Below, in pieces: positions 4,798 through 40,027 of a DNA stretch of 40,027 nucleotides (within the stretch, counting starts at the first letter, position 1; every line of letters begins with the position of its first letter). This DNA comes from Deltaproteobacteria bacterium (lineage in GTDB: Bacteria > Desulfobacterota > Syntrophia > Syntrophales > UBA6807), in assembly GCA_016935565.1 (NCBI GenBank), contig JAFGQS010000099.1, forward strand, positions 1-40,027, given 5' to 3'. Below the pieces are notes generated by a model. It did no database searches. It was not told the DNA's origin and worked only from the letters and a program-made list of their open reading frames with translations. A program made the position numbers and the translations under genes.

Positions 4798-4818
4798 CTA
4801 TGAGAGGCTCTACGTTAT

Positions 4819-5945
4819 TTATTCTTCTCGTGTCGAGACATCCCCCGCAGCGGTAATAAAACATGGTCCGCCACCGGATCCGCCGGGAGGATACGCAGCA
4901 GTCTCAAAGGTGACGTCTTCTCCGTAGTTCGTGCCGACACATCACCGGAACCTGATACGGCTGCTGTGGATGATCCGTATCCGAACGTCGATCCATACTC
5001 AAAATAATACATCGTGCTTGCATTGTTGGGATTCGTAACCCCCTGTAACGTGGCGGTATTCAGGCTTACATTGCCGGCGGTGCCTGTCGTAGCAGACGGT
5101 TCTATGGCATAGACAAGGTAGGCAATGGCACAGGCAACATGAGCAGCGTTATACCGTATCCGCATATAGCCGCTTTCTCCCCACGCCGGCCCCCAACAGT
5201 TCCGCAATATCCAGCATCCCCCTCCCCCTTCCGGAGGATTATCATCCCAGCCAACAAGAGCAACAGCATGATTGGTGACTGCATAATAACAGGGTATTTC
5301 ATCACAGGTGGTATTGCTATCTTCGTAAACCCCGCTGCCGTATGCCTGAAAAGCAGAACCGACATATACGGCGGCATCAACGACACCATAGGTCATAATA
5401 GCTGTCTTTATTGCATCGATATCACCACAGGTAACGCGGTGCCACGACCGGTAGGTTGTCGCGGGATCACTCCAATGGGTACACGAACCGGGATCATCGG
5501 TCATATAGGGAAATTTTTCCCCACAGATACTCCCCTCTCTGGTGAGAGCCTGCAGTTCATAATAGCCATTATCGGCACCGTCGCATCCGCTGAAATGGTA
5601 ATAATAGGGATCATATTCTCCCAGGCACCACACAATAAACGACTCGGAAAAGTCGACACAATTACCGTCGTAGTTATCGGTTGCCTAATTATAGGCGACT
5701 TCGGCGGGGAAAAGGAGCATATGACGACGAAAGAAATACTGTTTCATCTCCGGGTCCATGTCGTAGACCCAGTTGTGATCAACGGTGAATCTGTAACCGT
5801 TGTGTTCGATTTTCTCCCTGATTTCTTCGAGAGTATCGCCAGGTTCGAACTTCAGTATCTCCCCGGGTGCACCGGAAGAAATAACCGGCAGAATAAAAAA
5901 AAGGACTGACAGAATTGAGATGATAAACCGTATCTTCACAGACAT
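4819..5945 (-). pseudogene. Papain-family (C1A) cysteine protease, decayed
   Basis: Begins with a signal peptide (residues 1-25, ending SSGAPG) and 86 codons of pro-region, then TAG at 5687-5685. The same frame continues past it with ATDNYDGNCVDFSESF into a clear C1A half-domain containing NHAVALVGWDD (catalytic His) and ILRNCWGPAWGESGYMR (catalytic Asn). The segment carrying the oxyanion Gln and catalytic Cys (QGxCGxCW/Y) should lie at the TAG and is missing, an inferred deletion of about 60 residues. Near the C-terminus a Fn3-like repeat shifts frame. The other frame ends VTFETAAYPPGG...GPCFITAA, a CFI-type tail common in secreted deltaproteobacterial proteins, at TAA 4821-4819. Three lesions make an active protease very unlikely. 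Confidence 0.85.
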
Positions 5946-15823: not shown

Positions 15824-16138
15824 AATTATCTCCCCTCTCTCGAATAAGCAAATCCATCATATTTATCAACGCTTTTCTTGTATGAATGTATTATTATAGT
15901 CATTTTCACTAAAAACTCAATATACAATTTGAAATAATATACAGGATAAAAAACTTCATCTAATGTAAGAATCCCAGACCGATAAGACAAGCAATTTTTG
16001 TCGTTTTCTGCAATGACGAACATAATTGTGCTGAAAGGCACTGCTATTACATCTGAATCCTGGAGGAGATATCAAAAGTCGTGTTGTCAAAAGTAGTTGA
16101 CATCTCCTGATAATATATTCATATTGCTATGCAATAAC
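15824..16138. other. Divergent intergenic region between FAH and mlaE genes
   Basis: About 315 bases without a gene. It holds a TTGACA at 16097-16102 with only weak candidate -10 sequences downstream, an isolated GGAGGAGA at about 16061-16068, and an 8-base direct repeat TCAAAAGT (16072-16079 and 16087-16094). Both flanking operons must start here, but no promoter stands out strongly. Confidence 0.45.
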
Positions 16139-16942
16139 ATGATTTCGATCAGGCAAATGAAGAATATTATAGAAAATATCGGCAGTTCGACAATCGGAAT
16201 GATATCTTCTTTTTATCATACCATTACCTTTGCCATCCTGATAACGTTTAAAATGTTCGACAGAAAAACGTACAACAGTGCAACGCTATCAGTTATAACT
16301 GCTCAAATATATTACACTTCCGTTGAAATACTCCCTTTGTTTATTTGTGTGTCCGTTATCCTGGGAACACTCGTCATGGGAATACTCCTTGATACCATCA
16401 AGGCACTGGGGCTCGATCAATATCTGGGCACCATACTAATGGGTTTTGCCGTTAACGAACTATCTCCCTTTGTAACGGTTCTACTCCTGGCCCTGCGTTC
16501 GGGATCGGCAATCAATACTGAAATTGCCGTTATGAAAGTCAACCGGGAATTAGATACCTTACAGGCTTTTAATATTGACGAGAATAATTATCTTTTTATA
16601 CCCAGAATCATCAGTGTTATGATTTCTCTAGTGCTGTTGACCGGGCTTTTCTCAATAGTTTTATTGACAAGCGGTGTTTTATTTTCAAATATACTATTCG
16701 GTATGGGATTGAATACATATTCGATGTTGCTGGTAAATTCCATCGAATTTTCCGATATGACTATTCTCTTCTTCAAATGTTTGACCTTTGGTTTCTTTAT
16801 AACCTTAATTCCCATACTATCCGGCATGAGGGCAACATATGAACTAACGAGTATACCCGTATCTGTTTTACACGGTATGATTAGAGTATTTATTGCCATT
16901 ATTATGATAGAGGTGCTGTCATTACTAGCAAGATTTCTGTAA
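16139..16942 (+). CDS. mlaE: MlaE-type ABC permease
   Basis: Integral inner-membrane permease of MCE lipid-transport systems, about 267 residues with five or six hydrophobic segments. The MlaE features are the central LGTLVMGILLDTIKALGLDQY, followed by PFVTVLLLALRSGSAINTEIAVMKVNRELDTLQAF, the coupling-helix region where the ATPase docks. Start choice: ATG 16139 or ATG 16157, the latter preceded by CAGG; the frame is open back to a TTG at 16097. It is the first gene of a plus-strand operon with an ABC-like subunit, MlaD and a lipoprotein, which together should move phospholipid between inner and outer membranes. The motor subunit downstream is abnormal. Confidence 0.87.
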   Translation: MISIRQMKNIIENIGSSTIGMISSFYHTITFAILITFKMFDRKTYNSATLSVITAQIYYTSVEILPLFICVSVILGTLVMGILLDTIKALGLDQYLGTILMGFAVNELSPFVTVLLLALRSGSAINTEIAVMKVNRELDTLQAFNIDENNYLFIPRIISVMISLVLLTGLFSIVLLTSGVLFSNILFGMGLNTYSMLLVNSIEFSDMTILFFKCLTFGFFITLIPILSGMRATYELTSIPVSVLHGMIRVFIAIIMIEVLSLLARFL

Positions 16943-17406
16943 GATTTTTCGAAAACGATCCTGATCTGAAAAGAGCGGTTCAAGAATTTGTCAGTCAAGA
17001 CCGCAATCCGGGCCTGGTTTCTCACGAAATACCGCTTATTTCAAACCTGAACACAGTGGAAAATGTGGCTCTTATTAAACAATATCACCAAAAGGCTTCC
17101 CGGAAGGAGGCACAGAATATTGTTCTTCAGTATCTCAAGAAGTTGAATCTGGAACATATCGCACATGTTCGAAATCCAAACCTTTCTGAAGAAGAGAGGT
17201 TCTGCGGAATGCTGTTACGAGCTGCCATGGTTCAGAGTGGAGTAGTGCTGATATATAGACCTTTCATGCTCCTTCCGGCCAGAATAAATGCAACTTTTAT
17301 ATATAACATCTTGAAAAATATTGATGATTTATATACACAATGTTTCATATTTGACTTTTTGTGGAACAAATATCGATACGGGATGAACGATGTCAAAGAA
17401 TTTTGA
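16921..17406 (+). CDS. ABC ATPase-like subunit lacking all catalytic motifs
   Basis: This occupies the mlaF position between mlaE and mlaD, but is an ATPase-like fragment. Alignable parts are GLVSHEIPLISNLNTVENVA (Q-loop region, Gln replaced by His), KLNLEHIAHVRNPNLSEEER (signature LSGGQ changed to LSEEE) and GMLLRAAMVQSGVVLIYRPF (Walker B DEP changed to YRP). There is no Walker A and no H-loop His. The frame is open from 16885 to the TGA at 17404-17406 without lesions and overlaps mlaD by 17 bases. It has no ATG, GTG or TTG before GTG 17056, yet the similarity begins upstream of that. AGAGGTG 5 bases before ATT 16921 suggests a non-standard start. The protein is either a maintained pseudo-ATPase or a relic. 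Confidence 0.6.
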   Translation: MTSKISVRFFENDPDLKRAVQEFVSQDRNPGLVSHEIPLISNLNTVENVALIKQYHQKASRKEAQNIVLQYLKKLNLEHIAHVRNPNLSEEERFCGMLLRAAMVQSGVVLIYRPFMLLPARINATFIYNILKNIDDLYTQCFIFDFLWNKYRYGMNDVKEF

Positions 17407-18280
17407 ATTCAAAGTTGGGTTGTTTGTCATCATAACGTTGCTTCTTATTATTGCTACTGTTGGATACGTAGCATTTAAGAAAGACGTTTTTTCAAAAGTC
17501 TATACCTTTACGTTTTCTTCAAAATCGGGAGATGGATTCAGTGAAGGAATGCCGTTAGTTTTTGCCGGATTTGAAATAGGAAAGGTACAAAGCCTGGAGT
17601 TGAGCGATAATGGCGTTGTTTTAATAAAAATCAGAGTGCCGGAACGACATATCAAGTGGACACGATCTGACAGCATTTTTATACTCGAAAGACCGCTTAT
17701 CGGTTCACCCAAAATTGTTGTTTATACAGAAAATCTTAATAGTGCCATCCTTACCACCGAAATGAGACCCAAGATTTTTTCCGTTGATAATATCAATGAA
17801 GCCATTCAAAAATTCCGGCCCATTCTTCAAAAGGTAGATACCATCTTAGACAACGTTGTCACTATTTCAACAAACCTGTCCCGTCGAAACACGTTACTGG
17901 AAATGGTCGTTGGCGATCAGGAAAGTGTGAGTTCTATCAATGAACTGCTTAAAAAATCAAAGTATATCGGGTATGAATTGGACGCCCTTCTCAAGAACGC
18001 TCATTCCCTCACCCAAAACACAGATCGACACATTTTCGGCACGGAGGGACTGCTCGCTGCTATTCGCACCATTCTTGTAGATATATCCGGCAAACTTGAA
18101 ACACTGGAAGCCGCTGTCAATGATGTACCGAAAATAAGTTCCAATGTATTGAAATCAACCGGTGACCTTGATAAACTTCGACAGGACATCGATACCACTA
18201 TAGACACGACAAATAAACTCATCACAGATATTGGTAAATTCTTACCGGGTAAAAAAGAACGGGAGATCAAACTTCCATGA
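17390..18280 (+). CDS. mlaD: MlaD-like MCE-domain protein
   Basis: A 296-residue MCE protein with one N-terminal transmembrane anchor (residues 8-28) and a periplasmic MCE domain (about 35-115, with GDGFSEGMPLVFAGFEIGKV), followed by a long amphipathic helical tail to the C-terminus. MCE proteins form hexameric rings that carry lipids across the periplasm. The start overlaps the preceding ABC-like gene by 17 bases and the stop overlaps the lipoprotein start by 4 (ATGA), so the operon is translationally coupled. The tail, rich in Leu and Asp/Thr heptads, resembles longer MCE proteins that build tubes. Confidence 0.88.
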   Translation: MSKNFEFKVGLFVIITLLLIIATVGYVAFKKDVFSKVYTFTFSSKSGDGFSEGMPLVFAGFEIGKVQSLELSDNGVVLIKIRVPERHIKWTRSDSIFILERPLIGSPKIVVYTENLNSAILTTEMRPKIFSVDNINEAIQKFRPILQKVDTILDNVVTISTNLSRRNTLLEMVVGDQESVSSINELLKKSKYIGYELDALLKNAHSLTQNTDRHIFGTEGLLAAIRTILVDISGKLETLEAAVNDVPKISSNVLKSTGDLDKLRQDIDTTIDTTNKLITDIGKFLPGKKEREIKLP

Positions 18281-35109: not shown

Positions 35110-35226
35110 CCGGACTTTCAGAGGTCAGCATTCGATGATGAGAGAACGAGCATTATAGCGTCGTATATCGGGGTGTTTGAGTACATATAATCGATAATTA
35201 TTATTGAATTGAATGGAGGGAAAATC

Positions 35227-36192
35227 GTGGCTCAGGTGCAAATTCCGGAAAATGTATATGACGTAATCATCATCGGAGGAGGACCCGGCGGTCTGACGGC
35301 CGGGCTGTATGCATCCCGGTCAAGTCTCAACGTATTATTATTGGAGGGAAGCTCGACGGTCAGCCAGATCAGCCTGACGGACATGATTGAAAATTATCCA
35401 GGCCTGACGGGTGTTACCGGTCTGGAATTGATTGATCGATTTAAGAAACAGGCCGTTTCATTCGGATTGGAGGTAAAGACGGAACAGGTAACATCCATAG
35501 AAAAAAAACAATTAGGCGACGTGAAAGGATGGACCGTTGCAACCGAAACCGGGGAGTATGATACCCTTGCCATCATTGTTTCAACGGGCGCGGAATGGAG
35601 ACATCTGGGTGTGCCCGGAGAAGAAGCATTGATCGGCCAGGGAGTTTCGTTCTGTGCCACCTGTGATGCCCCCTTTTACCGGAACAGGGACGTTGCAGTT
35701 GTGGGAGGCGGAGATACGGCGGTTCAGGAAGCCATCTACCTGACGAAATTTGCAAGCAAGGTGACCATTATTCACCGGAGAGACCGCCTCCGTGCGACGG
35801 GAATTCTTCAGGAACGGGCATTTGCCAATGAAAAGATTGATTTTGCCTGGGATTCGGTTGTAGAGGAAATACTCGGCGACAACGGAGTAACCGGTGTCAG
35901 GATCAAGAATGTAAAGTCACCGGAGGAGGCGAGAGAGATACAGGTTGACGGCGTCTTTCTTTTCATCGGCTTGACGCCGAATACGGATCTTATTGCGGGG
36001 GTTGTCAATTGCGATAAGGATGGTTATATTATTACAGACGGCGACATGACAACATCTGCGGATGGTATCTTTGCCTGTGGAGATTGTATCAGAAAATCTC
36101 TCCGGCAGGTCATTACCGCCTGTGGTGACGGAGCAACGGCAGCAAATTCAGCCGAGCTGTACGTAGATGAACTCAAGGGTCAGTCGTATTGA
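35227..36192 (+). CDS. trxB: Thioredoxin reductase
   Basis: A 321-residue FAD/NAD(P)-dependent thioredoxin-disulfide reductase. The N-terminal dinucleotide motif DVIIIGGGPGGLTAGLYASR, the redox CxxC in CATCD at Cys143 and Cys146, the NAD(P)-binding VVGGGDTAVQEAIYL and the C-terminal GIFACGDC motif are present. GGAGGG at 35215-35220 and spacing favour GTG 35227 over TTG 35209. No thioredoxin gene is adjacent. It could also reduce a thioredoxin-like partner of anaerobic metabolism. Confidence 0.94.
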   Translation: MAQVQIPENVYDVIIIGGGPGGLTAGLYASRSSLNVLLLEGSSTVSQISLTDMIENYPGLTGVTGLELIDRFKKQAVSFGLEVKTEQVTSIEKKQLGDVKGWTVATETGEYDTLAIIVSTGAEWRHLGVPGEEALIGQGVSFCATCDAPFYRNRDVAVVGGGDTAVQEAIYLTKFASKVTIIHRRDRLRATGILQERAFANEKIDFAWDSVVEEILGDNGVTGVRIKNVKSPEEAREIQVDGVFLFIGLTPNTDLIAGVVNCDKDGYIITDGDMTTSADGIFACGDCIRKSLRQVITACGDGATAANSAELYVDELKGQSY

Positions 36193-36490: not shown

Positions 36491-36668
36491 GGATAAATAA
36501 TGCCGGCAGTTTGTCGGTTTGCAAGTAAGATCTCGTACTATGTGAATAATAATCTAAAAAGGAGCCGGATACGGAAAGCGGGAATACGGGAGGAAATCGG
36601 AATACATATACTGATCGTACTTTTTTATTCTGATTCCTGTGTCATGTCTTTCGTGTGATATTGTTAAC

Positions 36669-37511
36669 ATGGATCGATTGATAGCGTTCTGGCAGCATAT
36701 TCCTCACCATATCAGCCCTATCATTTTTCAGATCGGATCCTTTCAGCTTCGGTACTACGGTCTTATGTACCTTGTTGCCTTCTTTATCACATACATCCTC
36801 GTTGTCTATCGAATAAAAGATGAAGGGTACGACTATTCACACGATACCATACAAGACTATTTTGTATGGGCAATTCTGGGGCTGCTTATCGGGGCGCGTC
36901 TGGGATATGTTATCTTCTACAGCTTCCCCTATTATCTGCACCATCCTTTTGAAGTTATTTTCCCTTTCGACCTTTCCAATGGATTCAAATATGTTGGCAT
37001 TAGCGGTATGTCCTATCATGGAGGGGCTATCGGGGTCTTTGTGGCGACGGTCATGTTTTGCCGGAAGCACACAATAAACTTCTGGAATTTTGCCGATTTA
37101 TTTGCTGCAGCGATACCACTTGGGTATACATTCGGGAGAATCGGAAATTTCATCAACGGGGAACTGTACGGTCGCGTGACTGATGTGCCGTGGGGCATGT
37201 ATTTCCCGTTGGATCCCTATCAACAGCTTCACCACCCGTCTCAGCTCTATGAAGCCTTTTTTGAAGGAATCGTTCTTTTTGCCCTACTCTGGAGCATCAG
37301 GAAGAAAAAATGTTTTGATGGTTTTCTCTTCTCTCTCTATCTGATCGGTTACGGAACAGTCCGTTTTTGCATTGAGTTCTATAGAGAACCGGACCCGCAA
37401 TTAGGTTTTATCTTAGGGACGCTGACGATGGGACAGGTTCTGTGCCTCATTATGATCGCCGTTGCTCTGGTCGTTATTCTGATACGGAAACGGAATCCGG
37501 TGGGTTCCTGA
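36669..37511 (+). CDS. lgt: Prolipoprotein diacylglyceryl transferase
   Basis: A 280-residue integral inner-membrane enzyme that transfers diacylglycerol from phosphatidylglycerol to the lipobox Cys of prolipoproteins. About seven hydrophobic segments are seen, together with the family signature GRIGNFINGELYGR, the YYGLMYLVAF segment near the N-terminus and HPSQLYEAFFEG. ATG 36669 fits the family start better than ATG 36639. The upstream 36491-36668 stretch has only degenerate CGGAAT-like sequence. It is needed for the lipoproteins in this window, such as the MCE-operon one. Confidence 0.95.
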   Translation: MDRLIAFWQHIPHHISPIIFQIGSFQLRYYGLMYLVAFFITYILVVYRIKDEGYDYSHDTIQDYFVWAILGLLIGARLGYVIFYSFPYYLHHPFEVIFPFDLSNGFKYVGISGMSYHGGAIGVFVATVMFCRKHTINFWNFADLFAAAIPLGYTFGRIGNFINGELYGRVTDVPWGMYFPLDPYQQLHHPSQLYEAFFEGIVLFALLWSIRKKKCFDGFLFSLYLIGYGTVRFCIEFYREPDPQLGFILGTLTMGQVLCLIMIAVALVVILIRKRNPVGS

Positions 37512-37550: not shown

Positions 37551-38702
37551 TTACGGAAGGGAATCTTCCACAATCCTTGTAATGTAGGTTAGTTGTTTCC
37601 CCAAATCCTTTTTCTTGGATGCAAATCCCAAATTAAAGACACAGAAAGGACACGAGGTGACGATTGACTCGTTCGGTATCTTCCGCAAGAGATTTGTCGC
37701 GATTTCCATTGAGAGGTTGCGATATACGGATCTGATACCTCCTCCGGCGCCACAGCACAATCCCTCTTCCCTGTTCCGCTCAATCTCTTCCAGATCGGTC
37801 CCGCACAGTGTCAGTATCTTTCTTGCTTCTTCGTAGATTCCTTCACCCCTTCCGATTCGACAGGGATCATGGTAGGTTACTGTTTTTTCTACCTTATTAA
37901 GAAGATCAGGATTTTCTTCGAGAAGATCATAGATTACCTCCACGGCATGATGAACGGTAAAGCCTGTATCGCCGAGGACATCGGGATAGAAATATTTAAA
38001 GCATTTATGACAGCCGCAGCAGGGAACAACGATTCTCGTGATTCCAAGGGATTTGAATCGCTCGACGTTCCGTTGGAAATACTCTGCAGCAAGATCGGTT
38101 CTTCCCGATTCATAAATGTAAGTGCCGCAGCATCCTTCGTCTTCAAGAACCATAAAGTCGAGCCCCAGTTTTTTCAACACGGTGTATGTTGATGATGCGG
38201 CATCCTTTACCAGGTACGATGGAAGGCACCCCAGAAACAGGAGTGTATCGGACTCATTTTTTAAAAATGCTTCGGGGAGCCAGTCCAAGCGCGTTGCTGG
38301 ATCACCGTTCACTGCATTGCCTCGCTCTATGATTCCCTCGATTACCGCGTTGTGTCTATCGGTTGGGGCAAGGTTCCGTCTGACCAGCTCCTCTCTGGCT
38401 CGATGGACGATAGAGGTGATATCGATTTTAAGGGGGCACGCCGCTTCGCACTGCATACATTTTGGGCAATTATACATGCTTTCCAGCATGAGCGGCGTCA
38501 CATCTTCTCCCTCAAAGATCTTAACTGCAGTTTGAAGCCGGTGCAGGGGAGAAAACATAGGTTCTCCCGTCATTTGATAGGTAGTACAATAATCCATGCA
38601 TAATTCGCACTCCGTGCATACCGATGCCTGATCGACGATCCTCCTTGGTTTTTTGATTCTTCGATCATGTAATCCCTTTCTTTGTTCCTTGAATTCTCGC
38701 AT
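37551..38702 (-). CDS. (Fe-S)-binding CCG-domain protein (GlpC/HdrD-like)
   Basis: A 383-residue cytoplasmic redox protein. The N-terminal part has two [4Fe-4S] motifs, Cys29-32-35-39 (CTECELCMDYC) and Cys79-82-85-89 (CPKCMQCEAACP). These are followed by two CCG domains with DEGCCGTYIYESG and GLCCGAGGGIRS. This is the layout of GlpC and HdrD-type proteins that pass electrons to a heterodisulfide or quinone. No catalytic HdrA/FAD subunit is adjacent. AAGGAAA precedes ATG 38702. It is divergent from the selenocysteine disulfide reductase gene, 374 bases away, hinting at a thiol/disulfide electron pathway. Confidence 0.92.
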   Translation of the reverse strand: MREFKEQRKGLHDRRIKKPRRIVDQASVCTECELCMDYCTTYQMTGEPMFSPLHRLQTAVKIFEGEDVTPLMLESMYNCPKCMQCEAACPLKIDITSIVHRAREELVRRNLAPTDRHNAVIEGIIERGNAVNGDPATRLDWLPEAFLKNESDTLLFLGCLPSYLVKDAASSTYTVLKKLGLDFMVLEDEGCCGTYIYESGRTDLAAEYFQRNVERFKSLGITRIVVPCCGCHKCFKYFYPDVLGDTGFTVHHAVEVIYDLLEENPDLLNKVEKTVTYHDPCRIGRGEGIYEEARKILTLCGTDLEEIERNREEGLCCGAGGGIRSVYRNLSMEIATNLLRKIPNESIVTSCPFCVFNLGFASKKKDLGKQLTYITRIVEDSLP

Positions 38703-39076
38703 GATTTCCTTCCCATCTGCCCTGAATGTTAACGACCTGTACCGTTATCGCATATAATGGTACGGCATACAATTGTAATGTTTAACAGATTTCCGCATAA
38801 CATATTGTCTACTAATTTCCAAATATTAATTTGCGTCTTGCGACCATGTAACCGGTCGTATCCTGATGACATCGTTGTTGTGCTTACCTGAGGTTCGTGA
38901 CGTCGGTCATATTTCGCTTTCAGATTGCAGAGGATCAATATTTTTGTTAGCATGACTACCATAAACAGGTCTGAACCTGACCAAACACGGAATGCGTGAT
39001 AGAAGACAAAAGCGTAAATGTACGATCATACAGAAGGCTTGGGTGATTTAACGTTTCGGAGAAAGCGAGAGGTTCT
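38703..39076. other. Divergent intergenic region with a palindrome
   Basis: 374 bases with no gene. It contains a 25-base hairpin-capable palindrome (38739-38763, listed separately), a CGACC...GGTCG pair near 38850-38867, and an AGAGG site before the ATG of the reductase. No clear promoter hexamers stand out. Confidence 0.5.
38739..38763. promoter_or_regulatory. Palindromic operator-like site
   Basis: GTACCGTTAT (38739-38748) and ATAATGGTAC (38754-38763) form a 10-bp stem with one G-T wobble and a CGCAT loop. It lies 37-61 bases upstream of the Fe-S protein start, where a repressor or redox regulator could bind. No known motif was matched. Confidence 0.4.
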
Positions 39077-40027
39077 ATGAGCAGAAAGGTGGTTATCGTC
39101 GGAGGCGGTGCGGGAGGTCCGTCAAGCGCTGCTGAGGCGAAAAGAAGAGATCCATCCCTGGATATCACTATTGTCGAAAAGGGCGAATTTATTTCTTACG
39201 CAGCCTGACCGATGACATATTACATCGGTGATGTAATAAAAGATGAGAAATTGCTGATTGCCAGAACACCTGAGGCGTTCGAAAAAACCGGAGTGACGGT
39301 GAAAACGAGAACCGGTGTTGAGGCAATTGATCCGGGAAAAGGGGAGGTTCGATTGGATAATGGAGCAAACCTCCCTTACGATATACTCGTTCTTGCCACG
39401 GGATCGAAGGTTTTTTTACCTGACATGCCGGGAATACATGAAGAAGGCGTTTTTAAGCTCAAGGATCTCAGAGACGGCATTAATATAAAGTCCTATATTC
39501 AGAATAAACAGTGTGGAAGTGATAAGTGTCGCAAGGCAGTCATTCTGGGAGCCGGCTTTATCGCCATGGAGTTATGCGAGGCAATGAGGAATTTAGGTCT
39601 CGAAACCAGTGTAGTCTACAGGGGTGAACTTCCCATCAAAAGATGGGATAATGAGTTTTCGAAACTTGTCCTGGGAAAACTTACCGAGAATGAAGTTGAC
39701 TTCATACCGAATACACTGCCCGTTGCGATCGAAAAAAAGAAAAACAAACCTGGTCTCCGCCTGATTACCGATGATGGCGAGATGGAGGCAGATATCATTA
39801 TCTTTGCAACGGGAGTGAAGTCGAATATAGCGCTTGCCGAACAGATTGGCCTGAAAATCGGTAACACCGGTGCGATCATGGTCGATTATTCCCAGCGTAC
39901 CTCGCGGGAAGAAATCTATGCTGTCGGTGATTGCTGCGGCGTGTATCACCGGATAAAACAGCAGTGGGTTCACATGCCGTTAGGTGACATTGCGAATAAA
40001 CAGGGAAGGGTTGCCGGTGCCAACATT
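39077..40027 (+). CDS. CoA-disulfide reductase-like selenoprotein (3' end outside window)
   Basis: FAD/NAD(P)-dependent disulfide reductase of the CoA-disulfide reductase/NADH oxidase type, 317 codons visible. N-terminal RKVVIVGGGAGGPSSAAEAK, the NAD-binding KAVILGAGFIAMELCEAM and IYAVGDCCGVYH are intact. The active-site stretch reads ISYAA-(UGA)-PMTYYIGDVI. In the family it is SYA(N/A)C(G/A)LPY, so the in-frame TGA at 39206-39208 is codon 44, exactly the catalytic Cys. Reading continues without another stop to the window end. A SECIS-like hairpin follows. AGAGG precedes ATG 39077 by 5-6 bases. The substrate (CoA-disulfide, persulfide or O2) is not settled. It needs SelA/B/C/D encoded elsewhere. 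Confidence 0.87.
39218..39238 (+). promoter_or_regulatory. Bacterial SECIS-like hairpin
   Basis: TATTACATC (39218-39226), loop GGT (39227-39229) and GATGTAATA (39230-39238) form a perfect 9-bp stem. The loop begins 18 bases after the UGA (39206-39208) and opens with G, meeting the bacterial SECIS rule of a small G-containing apical loop about 16-37 nt downstream. It lies within coding sequence, as bacterial SECIS elements do. Confidence 0.8.

Follow-up and report, generated by a model that had tools for sequence, protein, structure and literature searches.

The window analysed here comprises 40,027 nt and is an entire contig of a draft genome. At its 3' end lies a frame encoding an FAD/NAD(P)H-dependent oxidoreductase, which starts with an ATG preceded by a Shine-Dalgarno-like sequence and is interrupted by a TGA at codon 44 (Table 1). 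This TGA is the sole stop in the frame from 39077, which then stays open to the contig end; an earlier note on this DNA, made from the letters alone, had described a single in-frame TGA followed by no second stop, and the translation confirmed it. Around codon 44 the translation reads MSRKVVIVGGGAGG...FISYAA-UGA-PMTYYIGDVIKD... Because the window is the whole contig, the gene ends at position 40027 and approximately 130 codons are missing, so that the C-terminus is not seen; full-length relatives have 444–450 amino acids. A Pfam search with the translation identified Pyr_redox_2 (E 1e-56) and Pyr_redox domains, and the FAD and NAD motifs were found intact, as the same note had stated. The genes encoding a thioredoxin reductase, a prolipoprotein diacylglyceryl transferase and a CCG/4Fe-4S protein are located upstream. 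Elsewhere in the window, a papain-family (Peptidase_C1) frame (4815–5945, minus strand) is broken by a TAA/TAG stop at 5685–5687 and is probably a decaying gene. Between an MlaE-like permease (16097–16942) and an MlaD-like protein (17390–18280), a position at which one expects an ordinary ABC ATPase, only an ATPase-like remnant of 116 amino acids was found (17056–17406, plus strand), which, read by eye, lacks Walker A and has LSEEERF instead of the ABC signature.

Table 1 Position of the predicted selenoprotein gene, its sequence elements and its neighbours in the window
Feature	Position	Strand	Basis and remarks
trxB, thioredoxin reductase	35209..36192	+	TIGR01292 above cut-off; conserved syntenic neighbour, upstream of the oxidoreductase in relatives
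lgt, prolipoprotein diacylglyceryl transferase	36639..37511	+	TIGR00544 above cut-off; usually directly upstream of the oxidoreductase in relatives
CCG/4Fe-4S heterodisulfide-reductase-like protein	37551..38702	-	Pfam CCG and Fer4; between lgt and the Sec gene
Shine-Dalgarno-like GAGAGG	39067..39072	+	4 nt 5' of ATG 39077-39079; read from the sequence
Predicted Sec-containing FAD/NAD(P)H-dependent oxidoreductase, CDS	39077..40027	+	Translation with TGA = U; 317 of ~450 codons, cut by contig end
FAD-binding motif GGGAGG, residues 9-14	39101..39118	+	Translation
UGA codon 44, predicted Sec replacing the catalytic Cys	39206..39208	+	Structure alignment and codons of homologues
Putative SECIS hairpin	39218..39238	+	9-bp stem UAUUACAUC / GAUGUAAUA, GGU triloop 39227-39229; 8-bp core 39219-39226 with 39230-39237
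NAD(P)H-binding motif GAGFIAME, residues 158-165	39548..39571	+	Translation; invariant among near relatives
GDCC motif, residues 284-287	39926..39937	+	Extra Cys adjoining the FAD-binding Asp

Codon 44 aligned with the active-site cysteine of the Thermus NADH oxidase/CoA-disulfide reductase (CoADR; 6ruz), the Archaeoglobus persulfide reductase (6pfz) and the Pyrococcus CoADR (5l1n, 4fx9, 3kd9), the very column to which the TGA had been assigned before. A search for TGA/TGC homologues, also proposed there, revealed that this column holds Sec or Cys only: among 144 distinct homologues the codon was TGA in 101, TGC in 23 and TGT in 20, and no others were found. Within the family, five of six genomes, including the source genome, contain the gene, in each case with TGA at codon 44; the four other orthologues share 86, 62, 62 and 56% identity with the window gene. 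Throughout the order, a homologue (E <= 1e-60) was detected in 144 of 155 genomes and the best-scoring ones mostly have exactly one in-frame TGA. Named records of the group belong to Syntrophaceae, Smithella, Syntrophus and Deltaproteobacteria MAGs; in the plasmid collection, only distant homologues with 34–36% identity were found among the matches listed. Some genomes (e.g. G026) have the Sec and the Cys form together. The source genome also encodes a distant Cys-type CoA-disulfide reductase paralogue (L020, G000:C100) with one in-frame TAA, a possible pseudogene or assembly error.

Since the TGA recurs in independent genomes, a misread TGC at 39206 was excluded, and a sequencing error is ruled out by the TGA in four further genomes of the family and in 101 distinct homologous genes. 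If the TGA were a true stop, the gene would be a pseudogene or begin at a later Met, and an ordinary gene caller indeed yields an ORF of 272 amino acids from the ATG at 39212. As had been predicted from the sequence, this start loses the FAD motif, which argues against it, as does the occurrence of the TGA in that many distinct genes from many families. Moreover, constraint is strong on either side of the TGA; of the 43 codons 5' of it, 12 show synonymous differences to the nearest relative and only 2 change the amino acid, and therefore this region is under constraint at the protein level. Together with a conserved hairpin that tracks the TGA (see below), this conservation refutes the pseudogene reading, which we consider highly improbable. 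Decoding of the TGA as another amino acid (Trp, code 4; Gly, code 25) or non-specific readthrough would also leave the frame open, but TGA ends many genes of the window as an ordinary stop (13 of the 31 genes listed, with TAA in 11 and TAG in 7), from which we take it to be an ordinary stop elsewhere in this genome. Furthermore, sel genes are present, and homologues have Cys in this column, never Trp or Gly; these Cys-only replacements refute such a recoding, which is hardly conceivable.

The motif after the Sec is UPMT in the window gene and U-P-[MT]-[PT], or UPxP, in the clade to which it belongs (U-P clade). Downstream of the UGA a putative SECIS hairpin was found with a spacing of 18 nt from the UGA to the loop and an energy of -7.3 kcal/mol. 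The bSECIS model in the literature (PMC13188914) requires 3–9 nt in the loop, with G at its first two positions, 4–16 bp, 16–37 nt and an MFE of <= -7.5. The GGU loop, the 9 bp and the 18 nt lie within these ranges, whereas the energy just misses the threshold. In the U-P clade, the distinct Sec genes form all eight core pairs without exception (56/56), as against 4 of 29 Cys genes. The codons of the stem are fixed in the Sec genes of this clade (I50 ATC and D52 GAT in 56/56, V53 GTA in 54/56) but not in the Cys genes, and the third bases of G51 in the loop and of I54 past the stem core vary freely in the Sec genes. Covariation in the hairpin amounted to 0.135 versus 0.079 after shuffling, slid controls were all far lower, and three hairpin pairs were altered on both sides by compensatory changes (28 sequences). 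After synonymous randomisation, the MFE of the stem region alone was significant (0.45% as low), that of the full 48-nt stretch 3' of the UGA was not (25% as low). A scan of the window against Rfam gave no match. In the window sequence alone, a nearer hairpin (CCGAUG/CAUCGG) folds better, with -9.9. We do not take this candidate for the SECIS, because genes with the codons CCC AUG, CCG ACG or CCC CUC do not conserve it and its loop is too near to the UGA; the ribosome would, as we judge, melt it.

A search for the selenium machinery, by which the earlier note had proposed to check its claim, revealed selB (368 bits, above cut-off), selA (617 bits) and a tRNA-Sec (selC; anticodon TCA, 75 bits, in agreement with ARAGORN) in the source genome. 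The gene for the tRNA-Sec extends no further than 106 bases into its contig. A selD gene (TIGR00476) was found neither in the source draft nor in the nearest relative; since the draft consists of 196 contigs, a gap is the likely cause. A Sec-type selD, itself containing a TGA, is present in three genomes of the same family (3/6). Across the order, selA was detected in 137 of 155 genomes and, among genomes with >=90% completeness and <=5% contamination, in 91 of 92; the exception, G145, carries the Cys form (L151) and is a natural control. We conclude that the frame is very probably, as the earlier note had read it, a selenoprotein gene that functions in a bacterium of the Syntrophales type and encodes an FAD enzyme. 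Sequence evidence shows the Sec decoding, the catalytic position of the residue, the fold and the orthologous Sec/Cys locus beside trxB and lgt. UGA codon 44 would be decoded as Sec by SelB and tRNA-Sec, guided by the hairpin downstream.

The gene order trxB, lgt and then the oxidoreductase is common to most Sec and Cys copies and, therefore, the two forms are orthologues at one locus. The CCG/Fe-S gene in the gap between lgt and the oxidoreductase is shared by the window and its nearest relative only (L013/L037) and is missing elsewhere; thus, it probably does not belong with the Sec gene. A tree of 138 sequences, which was rooted by eye and whose ancestral states did not come from a tool, requires 13 switches between Sec and Cys, at least 11 of which are forced by well-supported (starred) branches. 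Cys copies are nested repeatedly within Sec clades, and Sec is also the residue of the sister groups (U-E-T-P and others); therefore, most switches in the U-P clade look like changes from Sec to Cys that left decayed hairpins behind. On one contig (L135; G122:C58:67000-80000), U-P and U-A Sec oxidoreductases are encoded approximately 5 kb apart, so that two Sec subfamilies coexist. Phylum-wide, further Sec subfamilies with the motifs U-E-T-P, U-D/E-L-P, U-S-E-P and U-L-M-P were observed in other families (L176-L189, L204-L207); the published catalogue has UGxP only.

To which enzyme the gene corresponds was judged from fold, motifs and curated models. For the nearest full-length relative, the AlphaFold model (pLDDT 90.7) matched 6ruz, 5l1n, 4fx9 and 6pfz best, with TM scores of 0.92–0.93, and CoA-disulfide and persulfide reductases in general with 0.92–0.94 over the full length; it has the redox residue just ahead of the helix 46–50. 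Identity to solved structures was 33–36% for the best CoA-disulfide/persulfide reductases and 26% for the enzyme of S. aureus. In the latter, C43 is the single redox-active residue that follows the first FAD motif, and it corresponds to Sec44; the C43S entry 4eqx was among the matches. The mutated tyrosines of the S. aureus CoADR are Y361 and Y419 according to the PDB titles 4eqr and 4eqs, and we take Tyr361 to lie in the YYPG and Tyr419 in the YAPP motif. The tyrosine of YAPP/YSPP is retained in nearly all members. In the YYPG stretch, Tyr is kept by the U-S, the U-E/D and most U-G/C-G members, but is missing in 80 of 80 members of the U-P clade. GDCC was found in 50 of 54 Sec and 22 of 26 Cys members of the U-P clade, GDCA in 14 of 14 members of the U-G type.

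The best NCBIfam model for the Sec gene is CoA-disulfide reductase, yet the full-length nearest relative (L037) remained below the cut-offs of both NF007123 (370.6 versus 458) and TIGR03385 (370.4 versus 578.8). Because of these scores and the missing YYPG tyrosine, "CoA-disulfide reductase" is best read as a superfamily label that does not imply function. A true NAD(P)H-dependent CoA-disulfide or CoA-persulfide reductase with Sec is nevertheless a possibility, which we put at somewhat below even: besides the best model, the closest structures, the YAPP tyrosine and the trxB neighbour agree with it, but the scores under both cut-offs, the exchange of G for P adjoining the redox residue and the loss of tyrosines that most other clades keep argue against it. 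Since the YYPG tyrosines are lost, the standard mechanism of CoA-disulfide reductases is disfavoured. An NADH oxidase or peroxidase, in which Sec would serve as a peroxidase-like selenol in a selenenic acid cycle and shield the anaerobe from oxygen or peroxide, is rather unlikely. Both enzymes are structural neighbours, their single cysteine cycles via sulfenic acid, and Sec is typical of peroxidases, but they are more distant, with only 22–26% identity as compared to the values given above for the best reductases. Tentatively, and with some doubt, the U-P-x-P clade may instead be a separate enzyme that, with the YYPG tyrosines lost and the residue next to the redox centre changed, has moved past CoA-disulfide chemistry, in which a selenol of low pKa, possibly together with the cysteine of GDCC, reduces another substrate, and which switched repeatedly from Sec to Cys at one fixed locus.

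Judged by its superfamily, to which CoA-disulfide and persulfide reductases as well as NADH oxidases belong, the selenoprotein would be a FAD enzyme of the homodimer type in which electrons pass from NAD(P)H via FAD to the redox centre at Sec44. The selenolate would then attack a sulfur substrate (disulfide or persulfide) or a peroxide, and the resulting selenosulfide or selenenic intermediate would be reduced again via FAD. That the substrate is a low-molecular-weight disulfide or persulfide has, in our estimate, an even chance.

Sec forms of this enzyme are already known, as the earlier note had suspected: a Sec "NADH oxidase" was reported in Geobacter metallireducens in 2006 by Zhang and colleagues (PMC1794560), the protein WP_011365774.1 of this organism is catalogued as FAD-dependent oxidoreductase (CoA-disulfide reductase) with the motif UGxP (PMC9312934, PMC13188914), and one more Sec copy came from the GOS metagenome (PMC2398784). 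The G. metallireducens type belongs to the same superfamily and, judged by the published motif, has Sec in the same column, but this motif, UGxP ([U/C]-G-x-P), sets it apart from the U-P-x-P clade. UGxP homologues that were retrieved have Sec in the same column, lie on other branches of the same tree and differ by GDCA from the GDCC of the U-P clade. The solved CoA-disulfide/persulfide reductases (Thermus 6ruz, Archaeoglobus 6pfz, Pyrococcus 5l1n/4fx9, S. aureus 1yqz) share the fold over the whole length, the domain order, the FAD and NAD motifs and the redox position with the Sec protein; unlike it, they have Cys, followed by G-[LI]-P, and YYPG is kept in 6ruz, 5l1n and 4fx9. The Cys orthologues of Smithella, Syntrophus and Syntrophaceae MAGs share the trxB-lgt locus, the PxPYYIG motif and the missing YYPG, but have TGC or TGT for TGA and a hairpin that is decayed in 25 of 29. 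The NADH-dependent persulfide reductase (Npsr) has a C-terminal rhodanese domain of approximately 100 amino acids (PMC7969121). No such domain is present here; the relatives end at 444–450 amino acids, and Pfam found Pyr_redox domains only. Genome G078, which presumably is that of Syntrophus aciditrophicus, carries the Cys form (L150), and this may be the reason why the U-P clade was overlooked. The selenoprotein list published for S. aciditrophicus in 2006 has no such protein (PMC1794560). In the literature searched, no paper describing the U-P-x-P clade was found, and the window gene apparently belongs to a large, undescribed subgroup of the known Sec forms.

In sum, a selenoprotein family with very few sequences in the surveys consulted was found in most genomes of the order, and standard gene callers truncate its Sec oxidoreductase and drop the FAD motif. 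Close relatives have either a Sec or a Cys orthologue at one and the same locus, and the hairpin decays on loss of Sec; this provides matched natural pairs for the role of selenium in an active site of the flavin disulfide reductase type. If the U-P-x-P clade is indeed a separate enzyme, the repeated switches at a fixed locus would be a natural test of what selenium gains for an anaerobic flavoenzyme.
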